Made by a program: the position numbers and the translations under genes. Shown here in pieces: positions 18,469-25,629 of a stretch of DNA of 42,142 nucleotides. Below the pieces are notes generated by a model, which was not told where the DNA came from, ran no database searches, and worked only from the letters and a program-made list of their open reading frames with translations. The stretch is taken from contig JAFSGB010000040.1 of the NCBI GenBank assembly GCA_017434895.1, positions 1 to 42,142 of the forward strand, given 5' to 3'. Source of the DNA: Clostridia bacterium (lineage in GTDB: Bacteria > Bacillota > Clostridia > Oscillospirales > Acutalibacteraceae). How positions within the stretch are numbered: the first letter of the stretch is position 1; each line of letters begins with the position of its first letter.

Positions 18469-19491
18469 CTATTTTATATAATCTTTAAAGTTCTTTGAAT
18501 AATGCTTTTTGCCATCCTCTGTTATCCACAAAACTTCAGTATTTTCCAATGACTCTACAAATTTTTTGCCATCGTTCAAGTCCATACAAAAAAGTGCGGT
18601 TGAGAGGGCGTCTGCAACGGCAGAGCTTGGATTTATAACCGACACCATTTTATATCCCTTTGCTGGCATAAGTGTTTCGGGATCGATTATATGGTGGTAT
18701 TCCTTACCCTGCACAGTGTAGAACCGTTGATAAGAACCGCTTGTGACTATTGCAGAATCTGTAAGCTCAAGATATTCAGAATATTTTTTAGACTCTTCAC
18801 CGTTAGGATTTTCAAGTCCAATTTGCCACTTTTTTCCGTCAGGTCTATTACCCACAGTACGGATGTTTCCTCCCACATTTAATAGGTAGCCTGTTATTCC
18901 CTCTTTTTCCATCCAAAGTGCGATTTGCTCAGTAGCGTAGCCTTTAGCTATGGCACCAACATCAAGGCGAGATTCTGGGTCAGTTAATGAGACCGTATTA
19001 CCCTTGATTTCCAAGCCTTTAATATCGGTATGCTTTGCAGCTTCTCTTAGTATGTCCATATCGGGCAACCTAGCTTCGAGAGGATTATCAATACCCTGTG
19101 TACGGTAATTATGCCAAATTGAAAGTACACTTCCCATTGCCACATTAACCTTACCGCCAGTCAAATCATACATCTCTTTGGAAAACTGAAGCATTTCGGT
19201 AATTTTACCATCAACCTCAAGAGGTGTGTGGGCAGTATTAATAGAATAAAGATTATTTACTCCGTCATACCGACTGTAAATAGTATATAGCTTATGGTAC
19301 TCACCGAGCTTTGCCTTGATTTTTTCACAGTTCGCTTTAAAAACTGACTCGTCCTTTTCAAAGCCGATGATCGATGTAGCGGTATCAAAATAATCAAAGG
19401 AGTAGTCGGTAAATTTTTCGTACTTTTCCCTACAACCGGTAAAAGTTAAACTCAATAAAAAGGTCAAACACAAACAAATGGCTTTTTTCAT
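18469..19491 (-). CDS. apbE: FAD:protein FMN transferase, lipoprotein
   Basis: 340 residues. Lipoprotein signal with lipobox LTFTGC (Cys19). ApbE attaches FMN through a phosphoester bond to Thr or Ser in exported flavoproteins, typically RnfG, RnfD and FMN-binding lipoproteins. Motifs visible: FDTATS near residue 36, DVGAIAKGYATEQI, LNVGGNIRTVG, and the C-terminal TSGSYQRFY with HHIIDPETLMPAKGY. The neighbouring rnf operon and the duplicated lipoprotein supply likely substrates. AGGA stands 7 bases before the ATG. No promoter was found between it and the terminator upstream, so it may depend on read-through. Confidence 0.94.
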   Translation of the reverse strand: MKKAICLCLTFLLSLTFTGCREKYEKFTDYSFDYFDTATSIIGFEKDESVFKANCEKIKAKLGEYHKLYTIYSRYDGVNNLYSINTAHTPLEVDGKITEMLQFSKEMYDLTGGKVNVAMGSVLSIWHNYRTQGIDNPLEARLPDMDILREAAKHTDIKGLEIKGNTVSLTDPESRLDVGAIAKGYATEQIALWMEKEGITGYLLNVGGNIRTVGNRPDGKKWQIGLENPNGEESKKYSEYLELTDSAIVTSGSYQRFYTVQGKEYHHIIDPETLMPAKGYKMVSVINPSSAVADALSTALFCMDLNDGKKFVESLENTEVLWITEDGKKHYSKNFKDYIK

Positions 19492-19504: not shown

Positions 19505-19533
19505 TAAAAACAGGGAGGTGCAATGCACTTCCC
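19505..19533 (-). terminator. Terminator after the duplicated lipoprotein gene
   Basis: GGGAAGTGCA/TGCACCTCCC on the minus strand forms a 10-bp stem with one G-U pair, then TGTTTTTAAG. It lies 21 bases after the stop at 19555 and before apbE. Confidence 0.75.
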
Positions 19534-19554
19534 TACTTTTAATTGTAAATTAAA

Positions 19555-20544
19555 TTATTTAACAGTTGCAGCCTTAATAGCAGCCTTAACCATATCGTTA
19601 ACATTAATGGTGCAACCGGCAGTTGTTAAATCCTCAGCAGGCTTACCGGTGTCGTCAGCAAATGCGGCAATGCCATCAGCAGTTTTGCCAATTAACTTTG
19701 AATCAAAAGCATCAGCTTGCTCGTACCACTCCTTTGGAGCCTTAGCATAAGCCTTCATACCGTAATTGTCGCCAAGCTCATACTTAGTAGCGATTTCCTT
19801 ACCAAATTCGGTAGTGGAAACGCCCTTATCGTCAAATTTAACTGCGGTAATAACTGCGTCGGTCTTAGCGGCAGTAATTTCCTTCTTAGAATTAAGAGCA
19901 ACGGCAATGGCAGTGGTCATAATCTCGTTAACACCTTCAACGCCGTCAGCTGCATTCTTACCCTCATTTTGAGAGGAAACAACACCTAGCTGAAGTGTAT
20001 CGTCAGCAGTAGCTGCAGAATCCTTAGCACTCTTAACTGCTTTTTCTAAAGCAGGGATAAACTCGGTAATCTTAATTGTGCAACCGGCAGCAGTAACTTC
20101 GTCATTACCCTTATCGCCAACCTGAAGTGCCTTAACCTCATCAATGGTCTTACCAATGATTACAGAAATGAAAGCATCCTTCTGTTCATACCACTCTTTT
20201 GGGGCCTTAGCATAAGCCTTCATACCATATGCATCGCCAAGCTCGGTCTTGGTTTTCATTTCGGCGGGAGCAATAGCCTCGCCCTTGGCGGTGAAATTAA
20301 TCTTGTTTTGTGCAGTGTCGATAGCAGCCTTTACAATCTTACCGTCCTTGTCTAGAAGCACGGCGGCAATAGTTGTAAGAGCTTCTGCTGAGCCGTCGTT
20401 ATCACCATCGGCATTTTTAACCTCAGACAAAGCAGAATACATACCGTAGCCGAGCTTTAGGGTTTCTTTTTGGCCGCAGCCTGCAAGAGAAATCACAGAG
20501 AAAATCATCAATACAGTAAGGATTAAGCATAGAATCTTTTTCAT
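19555..20544 (-). CDS. Duplicated exported lipoprotein, possible degenerate FMN-binding-like repeats
   Basis: 329 residues. Signal peptide with lipobox SLAGC (Cys23). The rest is two tandem copies of a ~150-residue domain: each begins LKLG/LQLG, carries a D/N-K-rich strand, then YGMKAYAKAPKEWYEQ (106-121 and 261-276, identical), a KT-A/I-DEV/GI segment, and ends AGCTIKI (153-159) or AGCTINV (309-315) followed by an amphipathic helix. The end resembles the ApbE target of RnfG, (D)AIAGATIT, with Cys for Ala. Whether the Thr is flavinylated is unknown. It has its own strong promoter and terminator between the rnf operon and apbE. I know no characterised function. Confidence 0.6.
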   Translation of the reverse strand: MKKILCLILTVLMIFSVISLAGCGQKETLKLGYGMYSALSEVKNADGDNDGSAEALTTIAAVLLDKDGKIVKAAIDTAQNKINFTAKGEAIAPAEMKTKTELGDAYGMKAYAKAPKEWYEQKDAFISVIIGKTIDEVKALQVGDKGNDEVTAAGCTIKITEFIPALEKAVKSAKDSAATADDTLQLGVVSSQNEGKNAADGVEGVNEIMTTAIAVALNSKKEITAAKTDAVITAVKFDDKGVSTTEFGKEIATKYELGDNYGMKAYAKAPKEWYEQADAFDSKLIGKTADGIAAFADDTGKPAEDLTTAGCTINVNDMVKAAIKAATVK

Positions 20545-20573: not shown

Positions 20574-20602
20574 ATTTTACTATAAAACTGTATATATGTC
20601 AA
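20574..20602 (-). promoter_or_regulatory. Sigma-A promoter of the duplicated lipoprotein gene
   Basis: TTGACA (complement of 20597-20602), 17-base spacer, TAAAAT (complement of 20574-20579). It begins 4 bases after the stop codon region of the Gx transporter gene; the ATG has TAAGGAG upstream. Confidence 0.75.
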
Positions 20603-20605
20603 ATA

Positions 20606-21109
20606 TTAAAATTTAAATTCAGCAGTATATTTTAACAATATTATTCCACAGAAGCCGACAAATATCCCAGCAACAGTGCCACTTACTGTCAATACAGGCA
20701 TATAAAATCCAATTTCCTTTGTTCCAAGCAAAAAAACTGCAGCAATAATTTGTCCTAAATTATGGCAAACTCCACCGGAAATACTAACTCCTACAACAGA
20801 AAAATGATTTGTTTTTTTTAGTAACCACATAACTGTGAGGCTTAAAACTGCACCGCTTAAGCTATAAAGAAATGTCATAGCATTACCAAAAAGCAAAACC
20901 ACAGTTAAAAGCCTTATAAAAGAAACGGTCGCCGCCTCTTTGATAGAAAACCGATAAAGCAAAAATATTATTATTATGTTCGGCAGCCCCATTTTAATTC
21001 CGGGAACTGCTGACCATATAGGCGGCAAAAGGCTTTCAACAAAGGAAAGAATTATTGCAAAAGCAGAAAAAACTCCAAGAAAGGCTAACCTTTGAGTAGT
21101 ATTTTTCAA
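20606..21109 (-). CDS. Gx transporter family membrane protein
   Basis: 167 residues with five or so hydrophobic segments. MGLPNIIIIFLLYRFS and SISGGVCHNLGQIIAA match the Gx_transp family (sometimes labelled heptaprenyl diphosphate synthase component I), related to ECF S-components. It starts at TTG (21107-21109), which overlaps the stop of the NusG-II gene in a TTGA, with GAGGA upstream. In many clostridia this family sits with NusG-II proteins, ApbE and flavinylated proteins, so a role in flavin or quinone-type cofactor supply to the cell surface is inferred. The last gene of the rnf operon. Confidence 0.85.
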   Translation of the reverse strand: MKNTTQRLAFLGVFSAFAIILSFVESLLPPIWSAVPGIKMGLPNIIIIFLLYRFSIKEAATVSFIRLLTVVLLFGNAMTFLYSLSGAVLSLTVMWLLKKTNHFSVVGVSISGGVCHNLGQIIAAVFLLGTKEIGFYMPVLTVSGTVAGIFVGFCGIILLKYTAEFKF

Positions 21110-21456
21110 GTTTCTTCCTCCCCGTTAATCACAACTACCAGCTTGTGCGGAAGACAAACAATTGTTTCCCCTGATTTGGAAATCGCTTCGTGATGAACGC
21201 ATATTTTATCGCGACAATCCGCGCTAATAATTTGCGCTATACCGCCTTTTATTAAAATTACATTTTCGCCCAGTTCACTTTTAACGGTTTTTTCGGTGTC
21301 GGTATTTAACGGCAGTTTAAAAGCCGTTTCACCGTTAATTGAAATTACGACCATATCCCCTGTTTTTAAACTGAATTTAAAGAATAAAAACAGAATCAAA
21401 GCAACAACTAATATTATGCTGACAAGCATAATGTCATTTTTAAATCTACTTTTCAT
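21106..21456 (-). CDS. NusG domain II-containing exported protein
   Basis: 116 residues. A single N-terminal membrane helix (about 8-27) followed by an extracytoplasmic ~85-residue domain of the NusG_II type, with Cys residues in SADCRDKICVHHEAI and ETIVCLPHKLVVVI. It is not a transcription factor; the name reflects fold similarity. I start it at the ATG 21454-21456, five bases from the rnfB stop codon; longer in-frame starts would lie deep in rnfB. The ribosome site is weak, so translational coupling to rnfB is likely. Confidence 0.82.
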   Translation of the reverse strand: MKSRFKNDIMLVSIILVVALILFLFFKFSLKTGDMVVISINGETAFKLPLNTDTEKTVKSELGENVILIKGGIAQIISADCRDKICVHHEAISKSGETIVCLPHKLVVVINGEEET

Positions 21457-21460
21457 TGCT

Positions 21461-22246
21461 TTAAAGTGAGTGAATACATTTTGTGGGACAAACCTCAACA
21501 CATTTGCCGCATGCAGTACACAAATCATAGTTAACGCGTGCAAGGTTATTTTCCACTTTAATAGCTTTCGTCGGACAGTTATTTTCACACTTTTTGCAGG
21601 CAATACAGGCATTTTTGCAATTTTTAAGTGCTACTGCACCTTTGTCTTCACTTGAGCACATAACCCATACCTTAGCGGTTTGCGGAACAAGTGAAATAAT
21701 GTTCTTTGGGCAGTCACTGACACAAAGGCCACAACCAATGCAAATATTTGGATTAACTCTGGCAATACCGTCCTTCATACAAATAGCATCCACAGGGCAA
21801 GCTCTTGCACAGTCACCGCAACCAAGACAACCAAAGCGGCATTTTCCAGGGCCGCCATAAATAAGATTTGCGGCTCTGCAAGTCATTTGACCGTCGTAAT
21901 GAGCCTTAGAGGATGTGGCATCACAATTGCCGTTACAATGTACATAAGCCACCATTTCCTCTACATCCTTAAACTCAACACCCATAATTTTCGAAATTTT
22001 TTCAGATACTGCATCGGCACCAGGGATACAAAGATTTGTTGCGGCAGCGCCCTCGGCTATTGCCTTGGCATAATCGTCACAACCGACATATCCGCAAGCA
22101 CCGCAGTTAACACCAGGGAGTTCTTCACGCACTTTTTTTACGGTTTCGTCCTCTTTAACACTCATAAAATGAGCGGCTAATGTTAAAATAGCTCCGAGTA
22201 CAAGACCTATAACAGTTACAACCAGAAAACCTAATAAAATGTCCAT
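21461..22246 (-). CDS. rnfB: Rnf complex subunit B, Fe-S protein
   Basis: 261 residues. N-terminal membrane helix (about 4-26), then the 4Fe-4S domain LPGVNCGACGYVGCDDYA. The C-terminal half carries four ferredoxin-type motifs: CRFGCLGCGDCARACP, CIGCGLCVSDCP, CIACKKCENNCP and CTACGKCVEVCP. RnfB is regarded as the entry point for electrons from reduced ferredoxin. The ATG has AGGAGG upstream and follows rnfA by three bases. Confidence 0.96.
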   Translation of the reverse strand: MDILLGFLVVTVIGLVLGAILTLAAHFMSVKEDETVKKVREELPGVNCGACGYVGCDDYAKAIAEGAAATNLCIPGADAVSEKISKIMGVEFKDVEEMVAYVHCNGNCDATSSKAHYDGQMTCRAANLIYGGPGKCRFGCLGCGDCARACPVDAICMKDGIARVNPNICIGCGLCVSDCPKNIISLVPQTAKVWVMCSSEDKGAVALKNCKNACIACKKCENNCPTKAIKVENNLARVNYDLCTACGKCVEVCPTKCIHSL

Positions 22247-22853: not shown

Positions 22854-23540
22854 TTAATTTTCCTCCTTTAATACCTTTTTACAGGTATGGCAAACACCGG
22901 CGGAAGGACAACCCTCACAGGTAAATTCCTTTTTAAAGGGCGCTCTGCCATTAGTGATTTTAGTAACAACTGCAATCATTATACCGTAAACCAACAATCC
23001 TCCGGGTGGCTTAATAAAGAATTCAATTCTGTGGTCGATTATAAAGGGAATTGCCATTCCCGCGAAGGTACCGGCACCTATAACCTCACGGATGAGTGAA
23101 ATTGAAAGGAGTGCCAAGGTAAAGCCGATACCCATACCAATACCGTCTAGAACCGACCTTCCGACTGAATTCTTGCCTGCAAACATTTCAGCTCTGCCGA
23201 GAATGATGCAGTTTACCGTTATAAGGTCAAGGTATACACCCAAGTGACTGAAAATCGAAGGTAAATACGCTTGTATAAACAACTTTACGATAGTAACAAA
23301 ACCGGAAATAATTACAATATAGCAAGGAATTCTTACAGTATCCGGAATAACCTTACGCAAAGCAGAAATTACCGCATTCGAGCAAATTAGCACTACCATT
23401 GCGGCAATACCCATACTAAATGCACCGATAATTGAAGTGGTAGTGGCAAGTGTCGGACAGGTACCCAACACAAGCACAAAAACGGGATTTTCAAGGAGAA
23501 TGCCCTTTAATAGTGCTGACAAATTACTGTTATTTTTCAT
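22854..23540 (-). CDS. rnfE: Rnf complex subunit E, membrane protein
   Basis: 228 residues, paralogue of RnfA with LVLGTCPTLATTTS and LITVNCIILGRAEMFA carrying the cluster cysteines. A C-terminal tail with four cysteines, FTCEGCPSAGVCHTC, is an extra metal-binding-like element absent from the shortest homologues. The ATG overlaps the rnfG stop by one base (TAATG). Confidence 0.95.
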   Translation of the reverse strand: MKNNSNLSALLKGILLENPVFVLVLGTCPTLATTTSIIGAFSMGIAAMVVLICSNAVISALRKVIPDTVRIPCYIVIISGFVTIVKLFIQAYLPSIFSHLGVYLDLITVNCIILGRAEMFAGKNSVGRSVLDGIGMGIGFTLALLSISLIREVIGAGTFAGMAIPFIIDHRIEFFIKPPGGLLVYGIMIAVVTKITNGRAPFKKEFTCEGCPSAGVCHTCKKVLKEEN

Positions 23541-24712
23541 TATCGGGCACCTCCCTCTAAGATTTTAATTGCAGTGAAAACGCTTGAAATTGCTGATTTA
23601 TAGCCGTTAGTTGTGATTGTGGCACCTGCAATGGCATCAATCTCGCCGTAGTTTGCTTCCTCTTTGCCGTTAAACTGACTGTAAAACTCAAGGTTAGCAC
23701 AAGCGTCACCAATACCCTCGCTCTCCTTTTGAGCGGTGGTCTTGCAGACGATAATCTTACCCGCAGGTGTAACACTTACCTTAATTTCAATATACTCATT
23801 TGAACGGGTATATTTGTCCCCGTTAATGCCGTAGCCTGCAGCACGTAAATCAAATACATAATTACCGCCGGAGGTTTTGTAAGCCTTTTGAATGTGAGAA
23901 GGCATATCAGCAAAGCCCGATAGGTCAATTTCTGTCATTGTAGAATTAATAATCTTAGGTGCAACGGCAGAAATTTCATTCTTAATTGCTTCACCAAATT
24001 CGGCAGTAATATCACCGTTAACGTCGGCAGCAACAAAATTTTCACCGATTACAAATACAAAACCTGTATTATTATCCGCTTTATATACTGCCGAAATGTT
24101 ACCAACCTCCTCTGTTATGAAAATCTCGGTAAATTTACCCTCTGCGGAAGGTAAAGCGATACTTAAATTGTCATTGAGAATTGTAGCCTCGTCACGGATA
24201 TCAACCGAGCCACCGCCTAAAATAACGGCAGAATTTAGTGCATCCTTAACGGCATTTTTAAAGGCTGCAGAGGTTTTAGTGGCACCTGCAACGGTTTCAA
24301 CTGCATCTATTGTATCCGATGTAGTATTTACGAGGTTGTCACCATAGGTAACTTCTACACCCAAGGTCTCGTTACCCGAAACATACTTAACACCCTTGAC
24401 TGTACCATCTTTGTCAATTCCGCACATCAGAATTAAATCGGATCCGTAGCCCGCAGTTCTAAGCTTAATAACATAACCGCCGTTCTTTTCGCTGTAAGCT
24501 TCCTCAACGGTTTCGGGAAGTGTGAACTCAGAAAGGTCAAGTGCTTCAAAACCTTCGCCGTTGGGTAATACTTCAACCAAGCCGCTACTTACGGCGGCCT
24601 CTTCTTGCTCCTTGATAATAGGAGCTGCAATGGAGTTTGTAATCGCAAGCAATAAAGCTACAACCGCACAAATCAATGCTAAGGAAAGGACGTTTTTAAT
24701 ATGATTTTTCAT
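23540..24712 (-). CDS. rnfG: Rnf complex subunit G with two FMN-binding modules
   Basis: 390 residues, about twice the usual ~200. One N-terminal membrane helix (about 7-29). The first module ends VAGATKTS (Thr145) and the second ends DAIAGATITTNGYKSAI (Thr365), both matching the ApbE flavinylation motif. The second module also has SEGIGDACANLEFYSQFNGK, the usual RnfG block; in the first this is shortened to ETLG. A ~60-residue region at 195-260 between them looks like a further partial copy. The ATG at 24710-24712 follows GGAGG and overlaps the rnfD stop by one base. An in-frame start further upstream would lie inside rnfD. Confidence 0.92.
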   Translation of the reverse strand: MKNHIKNVLSLALICAVVALLLAITNSIAAPIIKEQEEAAVSSGLVEVLPNGEGFEALDLSEFTLPETVEEAYSEKNGGYVIKLRTAGYGSDLILMCGIDKDGTVKGVKYVSGNETLGVEVTYGDNLVNTTSDTIDAVETVAGATKTSAAFKNAVKDALNSAVILGGGSVDIRDEATILNDNLSIALPSAEGKFTEIFITEEVGNISAVYKADNNTGFVFVIGENFVAADVNGDITAEFGEAIKNEISAVAPKIINSTMTEIDLSGFADMPSHIQKAYKTSGGNYVFDLRAAGYGINGDKYTRSNEYIEIKVSVTPAGKIIVCKTTAQKESEGIGDACANLEFYSQFNGKEEANYGEIDAIAGATITTNGYKSAISSVFTAIKILEGGAR

Positions 24713-25629
24713 TATTTCGTCCTCCCAAACAGCTTGCGTCTTGACCATATATTAATATACGGATTTAAAATGTTCATTAAAAGAATTGCGAAGGAAACAC
24801 CCTCGGGATAAATTCCCCACAAACGGATAAGCACTGTAATTATACCGGCACCAATACCGAAAATAGCTTTGCCCTTTGGTGTGGCGGGTGAAGTCACATA
24901 GTCGGTAGCCATAAAGAAGGCACCGATAAACAGTCCGCCCGAAAGCACCTGATAAAGTGCGGCAGTAAGGCTAAAGTCCTTGACAAGGAAACTGAAAATA
25001 AATACTGTTCCAATAAAAGACATCGGCATTACCCAAGAAATTACTCCCTTAATTATAAGATAAATACCGCCGATAAGTAGTGCCAGCTTTGAGGTTTCGC
25101 CGATAGCACCGCCGCAGTTACCGAGGAATAAATCAAGTAAATTAGGCTCACTTCCCTCTGCTAACTGAACAAGAGGTGTAGCAGTAGCCACACTGTCCAC
25201 CGGAAAAGCCGGCTTTGCCAAATCGGTAAAGGCTATGAGCATAAATACACGGGCGGTGATTGCGGGGTTAACAAGATTGCAACCGATTCCGCCGAAAATA
25301 CATTTTACCAATACAATTGCAAAAATGCTTCCGACTGCCGCTTGCCAAAGAGGTGTTGTTGCAGGCAAATTAAGACCCAACAGAAGTCCCGTTACAACTG
25401 CGGACAAATCGTCGGTGGTATCCTCTTTTTTAACGATTTTGTTGAATAAAACTTCCGAAATAACACAAACGGAAATGCACATCAAGACAATGGAAAGTGC
25501 TTTAAGTCCGAAAATTAAAAATCCGGCAATAGTAGCGGGGAGTAATGCAATGATAACATCAAGCATTATGCTTGTAGTGGTTTTATTTGTATGAATATGA
25601 GGGGATGATGAAATGTGTAGCTGTGACAT
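24712..25629 (-). CDS. rnfD: Rnf complex subunit D, membrane flavoprotein
   Basis: 305 residues, about eight membrane segments. LHISSSPHIHTNKTT is the family start, and GGIGCNLVNPAITARVF is conserved. The flavinylation loop reads VDSVATATPLVQL, corresponding to the SGAT-P-L motif of other RnfD proteins, with FMN expected on a Thr. MATDYVTSPATPKG follows near residue 240. The ATG immediately follows the rnfC stop with no gap, and its GGAGGG site lies inside the rnfC end. Confidence 0.95.
   Translation of the reverse strand: MSQLHISSSPHIHTNKTTTSIMLDVIIALLPATIAGFLIFGLKALSIVLMCISVCVISEVLFNKIVKKEDTTDDLSAVVTGLLLGLNLPATTPLWQAAVGSIFAIVLVKCIFGGIGCNLVNPAITARVFMLIAFTDLAKPAFPVDSVATATPLVQLAEGSEPNLLDLFLGNCGGAIGETSKLALLIGGIYLIIKGVISWVMPMSFIGTVFIFSFLVKDFSLTAALYQVLSGGLFIGAFFMATDYVTSPATPKGKAIFGIGAGIITVLIRLWGIYPEGVSFAILLMNILNPYINIWSRRKLFGRTK

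Follow-up and report, generated by a model that had tools for sequence, protein, structure and literature searches.

The tandem-repeat lipoprotein and its surroundings

The window analysed here covers positions 1 to 42,142 of contig JAFSGB010000040.1 (assembly GCA_017434895.1) of a Clostridia bacterium (family Acutalibacteraceae), and the subject is a putative lipoprotein gene that stands near rnf genes and apbE (Table 1). On the minus strand the genes run rnfC-D-G-E-A-B, a NusG_II gene, an Hpre_diP_synt_I ('Gx') gene, the lipoprotein gene, apbE and a flavodiiron-type gene. A first-pass annotation, made from the sequence alone, had placed the lipoprotein gene between rnfCDGEAB and apbE; this order holds, with the correction that the NusG_II and Hpre_diP_synt_I genes separate rnfB from it. 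These two genes may correspond to EetA and EetB, respectively. The same annotation had assigned the gene a strong promoter and a terminator of its own. A promoter-like site and a hairpin (19512-19534) are indeed present, and because the region contains 6 promoter-like sites where shuffled versions have 7.7 on average, hence no excess, such a promoter and terminator are possible rather than established.

The protein has a lipobox (LAGC, Cys23), followed by two full copies of one domain, as had been noticed at first pass; the repeats share 45% identity across 147 columns (E 2e-31), and the 16-residue segment YGMKAYAKAPKEWYEQ is the same in both. The AF2 model of the 329-residue protein has a pLDDT of 94.9 and a pTM of 0.89. 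Each repeat closes with AGCTI, and in the model a helix follows after a short stretch. The initial description of AGCTI as standing in place of the AGATI of RnfG is accurate for both repeats and requires one correction: Cys occupies the Ala position, whereas the candidate bearer of flavin mononucleotide (FMN), Thr156 or Thr312, is retained. Cys as the flavin acceptor was considered and rejected as unnecessary, since the Thr is kept. The pattern DxxSGA[TS] is absent from both sites (VTAAGCT and LTTAGCT).

Table 1. Features of the lipoprotein gene and its neighbourhood in the window.
Feature	Position	Strand	Basis
Tandem-repeat lipoprotein gene, PplA/FMN-bind2-like, 329 aa	19555..20544	-	Open reading frame (ORF), lipobox, family of 79 loci, AF2 model
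Lipobox Cys23, putative lipid attachment	20476..20478	-	LAGC preceded by hydrophobic stretch
Repeat 1, residues 27-178	20011..20466	-	45% identity with repeat 2; single-repeat model pLDDT 96.2
Repeat 2, residues 179-329	19558..20010	-	Identity with repeat 1
Box 1, YGMKAYAKAPKEWYEQ, residues 106-121	20182..20229	-	Same kind of box in SGAT relatives
Box 2, exact copy of box 1, YGMKAYAKAPKEWYEQ, residues 261-276	19717..19764	-	Sequence
Site 1, VTAAGCT, candidate acceptor Thr156, preceded by Cys155	20077..20097	-	Same alignment column as DxxSGAT in relatives
Site 2, LTTAGCT, candidate acceptor Thr312, preceded by Cys311	19609..19629	-	Repeat-profile alignment with SGAT relatives
apbE	18469..19491	-	PF02424, E 4e-69; one match in window genome
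Hpre_diP_synt_I ('Gx') membrane protein	20606..21109	-	PF07456, E 1.5e-38
NusG domain II protein, actual start probably within ORF	21106..21612	-	PF07009, E 9.5e-29, residues 64-165
RnfG with two FMN_bind domains, AGAT in each	23540..24748	-	PF04205, two stretches
Promoter-like site 5' of lipoprotein gene, TTGACA-17-TAAAAT, 11/12 bases	20574..20602	-	Pattern fit

A family related to SGAT-bearing lipoproteins

A scan of genome contigs identified relatives at 79 loci, with 27 to 54% identity over the best segment, and the lipoprotein is thus no lone oddity. Alignment A1 combines the proteins of 65 of these loci with that of the window (66 proteins), and alignment A2 holds both repeats of 42 of the 66. 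Trp118 and Gln121 of box 1 are invariant across the rows of A1, and the lipobox Cys is kept in 69 of 74 aligned family rows. The A1 profile matches 2kzx_A at E 8.9e-9, with EWHEQ and DAISGATI of that structure aligned with the box and the site of the window protein. The PDB lists 2kzx as an uncharacterised protein. It presumably comes from Clostridium thermocellum. Lipoproteins that have TDAISGATIHVK and a box of this kind are matched by the single-repeat profile, as are the intermediates AGVT and TGVS; the repeat profile reaches the tandem SGAT lipoproteins L119 and L126. The canonical DxxSGAT lipoproteins share with the family both the column of the site and the YxM...EWxEQ box. These two features are likewise common to 2kzx and the SGAT lipoproteins L119, L122 and L126, which differ from the window protein in their canonical DxxSGA[TS], 2kzx also in having only one domain. 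Judged from these alignments, the window protein is homologous to SGAT-bearing lipoproteins.

No Pfam or NCBIfam family matches the lipoprotein above cut-off, PF04205 (FMN_bind) does not match it at E 1, and 2 of the 66 relatives are matched at E 0.01. An RnfG paralogue as nearest kin was rejected given the missing Pfam match and the result of hhalign against RnfG (E 0.093, probability 0.6 on a percent scale). RnfG/NqrC proteins share the gene cluster, and AGCTI followed by a helix lies at the AGATI place of RnfG; they differ in giving no significant profile match, and the window protein has a larger domain and a putative lipid anchor. Foldseek on the predicted models returned nothing at E 0.001, and 2kzx is not among the matches listed. 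An FMN_bind-type domain is fused to two repeats (L023:7533-8912) or to four (L028:6534-8912 and L039:6444-8912); the FMN_bind-like part of these fusions has GAT or GST, a Pfam match is displayed for L023 and L028, and apbE comes after each of the three.

The linkage to apbE, which the first-pass annotation had proposed as a check, recurs across the family. Of the 73 loci that leave 1.2 kb or more of space, 62 have apbE on the same strand no more than 700 nucleotides downstream and 5 at another place in the locus; in 6 it was not found. Two further searches, one across the class (230 of 391 genomes at E 0.001, most of the weaker rows spanning the signal-peptide end only) and one across the order (32 of 295 at E 1e-15, 28 of the 29 non-window loci being taken with flanks), provided 40 wider loci, namely the 28 from the order draw and 12 hand-picked from the class draw. 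In 33 of these apbE is directly downstream, and in one of the seven others (L197) the contig ends. The catalytic triad of FmnB consists of Asp, His and Ser (PMC8906456), to which we matched Ser251, His267 and Asp294 of the ApbE proteins by our own assignment; these three are invariant in 68 of 68 rows, window included. With descent not controlled, some ApbE columns differ between the partners of proteins that have Cys before the acceptor (the Cys form) and the partners of the other form. An unrelated lipoprotein of the substrate-binding or immunogen type that stands beside apbE by chance would agree with the absence of a Pfam or NCBIfam match; given the profile link to SGAT lipoproteins, the FMN_bind fusions and the repeated apbE linkage, this is already disfavoured and very improbable.

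An Ndh2-type NADH dehydrogenase is encoded near 21 of the 79 loci, and all 21 have a polyprenyl synthase (DmkB-type) and 19 a UbiA-type (DmkA-type) gene, many on the other strand; these assignments rest on similarity to genes of L030, which we named ourselves. In the Acetoanaerobium noterae record, Ndh2, DmkB, DmkA, the lipoprotein and ApbE stand in a row. This combination of genes is the one described for Listeria-type extracellular electron transfer (PMC8906456, PMC10608574), and by its gene neighbourhood the family gene takes the place of PplA in this set in the relatives. No Ndh2-DmkA-DmkB cluster was seen at the window locus, where rnf adjoins instead. A search of a plasmid collection returned a single record; the A. 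noterae record (L116, NZ_CP154629.1), which contains the whole set, is filed as a plasmid; with its length of 2.63 Mb it may be the chromosome.

The likeness to PplA is drawn from published descriptions. In PplA, FMN sits on Thr143 and Thr265 (PMC8906456). PplA and the cAD1-precursor (Cad) lipoproteins have two repeated FMN-type domains and an adjoining apbE (FmnB), and their clusters include NADH dehydrogenase and genes for polyprenyl and demethylmenaquinone (DMK) synthesis, as in the relatives, not the window (PMC7074142). They differ in having SGAT, which one or two motifs per analysed cAD1-precursor orthologue display, in contrast to the AGCT of the window protein; moreover, that study reported cad-apbE pairs only in genomes that lack rnf (PMC7074142), whereas rnf adjoins the window gene. 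FMN-bind2 proteins, again compared by description, have domains of ~160 residues, often even in number and predicted to form face-to-face pairs, and are described in terms of an [S/T]GA[S/T]-like site (Huang et al. 2024, PMC11334425; preprint PMC10979944), which the window protein lacks.

The acceptor column and the case for flavinylation

Sites were compared in three sets. The first comprises 74 of 81 matched ORFs, window included, those outside 250-500 aa (fusions, fragments) being excluded; the class set (n = 30) consists of the class draw's best 30 loci minus the window (29) plus the Acetoanaerobium record; and the order set (n = 23) consists of order-draw loci with two aligned sites. The acceptor column is Thr or Ser at 146/148, 60/60 and 45/46 sites, respectively; the sum of 251/254 is not a tally of independent events, because the sets may share species and are made of best-scoring rows. 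The acceptor pairs of the first set (n = 74) are Thr/Thr in 55, Ser/Ser in 16, Ser/Thr in 1 and Asp/Thr in 2. Around this column the motif is degenerate. Family sites read mostly xVT, xVS or xCT, V, C, A, I, S and T all occur directly ahead of the acceptor, and Thr and Ser exchange in the acceptor itself, for example in ASVS and AGCS; proteins without the Cys carry mostly Val there (ASVS, SSVT and similar). Asp stands six residues before the acceptor at 45 first and 48 second sites of the 74 proteins of the first set, and Asp or Glu at all sites of the class set. One divergent relative (L110:1465-2580) has TSST at both sites, followed by FGPD.

We consider covalent attachment of FMN to Thr156 and Thr312 of the window protein to be slightly favoured, in view of the constant hydroxyl with its Thr/Ser exchange, the recurrent apbE and the FMN_bind fusions. 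Published mutagenesis leaves room for a relaxed motif: according to a review, Ala to Val and Gly to Ala in the ApbE motif each leave about 50%, and Asp to Ala has minor effects (PMC12052999). Genome G394 bears on the same point, since its sole ApbE adjoins the family gene; in this metagenome-assembled genome of unstated completeness no FMN_bind protein was found even at E 10 and no RnfD/NqrB, ApbE substrates of the DUF2271/DUF3570 type not having been searched for there. Those families are among the further ApbE substrates (PMC8238504). The DNA pattern for DxxSGA[ST], with Thr and Ser codons ACN and TCN only, has five matches in G394: one in a long FtsH-like ORF, one in an ORF of 138 aa, two in ORFs of ~30 residues and one across a stop. 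A literature search, covering listings and passages of open-licence papers without supplementary files, found no description of AGCT or SSVT sites in this lipoprotein family.

Several observations weigh against covalent FMN. The canonical [ST]GA[ST] occurs at just 1 of the 254 sites (L042). The residue six before the acceptor is Val150 or Leu306 in the window protein rather than Asp, and Val holds this position in the window group, at 23 of the 74 first sites of the first set, and another paper terms the motif Asp essential (PMC10722498). In addition, canonical FMN_bind proteins are present in 57 of 61 searched genomes, so apbE is rarely without another substrate. These points, together with the loss of the acceptor at 3/254 sites, are what would be expected if the covalent flavin had been lost and the fold kept as a non-covalent flavin- or quinone-binding partner, or a structural one, of Rnf/EetAB. 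The conserved Thr would then cap the turn before the last helix, and Thr and Ser are both good helix caps. Set against such a loss, apbE recurs also at loci without Rnf in view and in G394, and the SGAT relatives have the same box; we regard it as somewhat unlikely. Flavinylation of these sites would mean that the ApbE motif as now accepted is too narrow and that flavin carriers, some of them fed by Rnf, have gone uncounted in Clostridia, many of which come from rumen and gut samples. If the sites are not flavinylated, a covalent flavin was lost while carrier and enzyme stayed side by side, which would be equally odd.

The Cys form, the doubled RnfG and a possible outward electron flow

The Cys before the acceptor is present in both repeats or in neither: 36/74 and 38/74 in the first set, 0/30 and 30/30 in the class set, and 15/23 and 8/23 in the order set (51/127 and 76/127 overall), with no mixed protein. 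At least four changes of state are found on the tree, a rough count because bootstrap values had not yet stabilised and the tree joins two long branches. Where 5 kb upstream could be seen, Rnf accompanies the Cys form at 24 of 29 loci and Ndh2 at none, whereas the other form has Ndh2 at 18 of 28 and Rnf at 3. The order draw, by our own reading, gives Rnf at 9/15 and no Ndh2 for the Cys form, and Ndh2 at 4/8 and Rnf at 3/8 for the Val form. By gene neighbourhood the Cys form goes with Rnf, an association confounded by descent.

The strict pairing, the repeated changes on the tree and the Rnf association would suit a functional Cys in the Rnf branch, in which a redox pair (a disulfide between repeats or molecules, or a flavin-thiol pair) adds a thiol step. 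So would L072 and L077, in which the Thr of repeat 1 is gone and the Cys is kept. An intrachain Cys pair is not required and is weakened as a general reason, because the single-repeat relatives L190 and L191 also carry the Cys. Some of the pairing can be put down to concerted evolution or to exchange between repeats, since the choice between Thr and Ser also agrees between repeats in 71 of 74 proteins of the first set. With the confounding by descent and Rnf at three of the eight Val-form loci of the order draw, we hold a thiol role to be unlikely.

A second peculiarity of the branch is its RnfG. The 402-aa RnfG of the window, with its two FMN_bind domains, is the only FMN_bind gene found in the window genome. 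The RnfG frame is at least 361 aa long in 20 of the 24 Cys-form loci that have RnfG, and two FMN_bind matches fall in the long frame of seven genomes (L006, L010, L013, L019, L025, L066 and L074); a second set of Cys-form loci with Rnf upstream has RnfG of 371-403 aa in five loci. RnfG is 172 aa long in L183 and 184 aa in L169, at a contig end. Among the matches listed from a class-wide RnfG search, most frames are ~190-220 aa and six are 340-360 aa, and four from genomes of the window's family without the lipoprotein are 194-208 aa; this listing favours single forms because its order reflects how well each frame fits a single-domain model. The doubled RnfG and the additional putative surface carrier suggest a branch that leads Rnf electrons outwards, as we infer from gene content.

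Taken together, the lipoprotein is quite probably an electron carrier on the cell surface, similar in kind to PplA. The best overall explanation, to which we give a little more than even weight, is a PplA-like carrier that is fed by Rnf here and probably flavinylated through a relaxed motif. A lipid-anchored protein of two FMN-bind2-like domains would sit outside the membrane and pass electrons to extracellular acceptors; in the window's branch these electrons would come from Rnf with the doubled RnfG, which would replace or supplement the Ndh2-quinone route. ApbE, encoded by the next gene, would attach FMN via its phosphate to Thr156 and Thr312, at a relaxed site that keeps the position and the hydroxyl, not SGA. 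Lipidation, covalent FMN, the electron path and the external acceptor are all elements that we infer. On the whole, the interpretation offered at first pass is partly supported. A broader proposal is rather unlikely: that ApbE flavinylates a large Clostridia branch of lipoproteins for extracellular electron transfer, using a non-canonical site (mostly [DE]xx[SA]xV[TS], and AGC[TS] in the Rnf branch) missed by motif-based surveys, and that the doubled RnfG and the Cys-bearing carrier make Rnf an outward electron outlet, with flavin-adjacent thiols tuning or gating it.

In the order draw the lipoprotein is present in the window genome; of the two further genomes listed for its genus one has it, as does one other genome of the family, and the remaining family members listed lack it. 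This patchy presence points to transfer of the cluster or to its repeated loss. L183, from the window's genus, has the same cluster with a shortened lipoprotein frame of 252 aa that contains the first AGCT site only.
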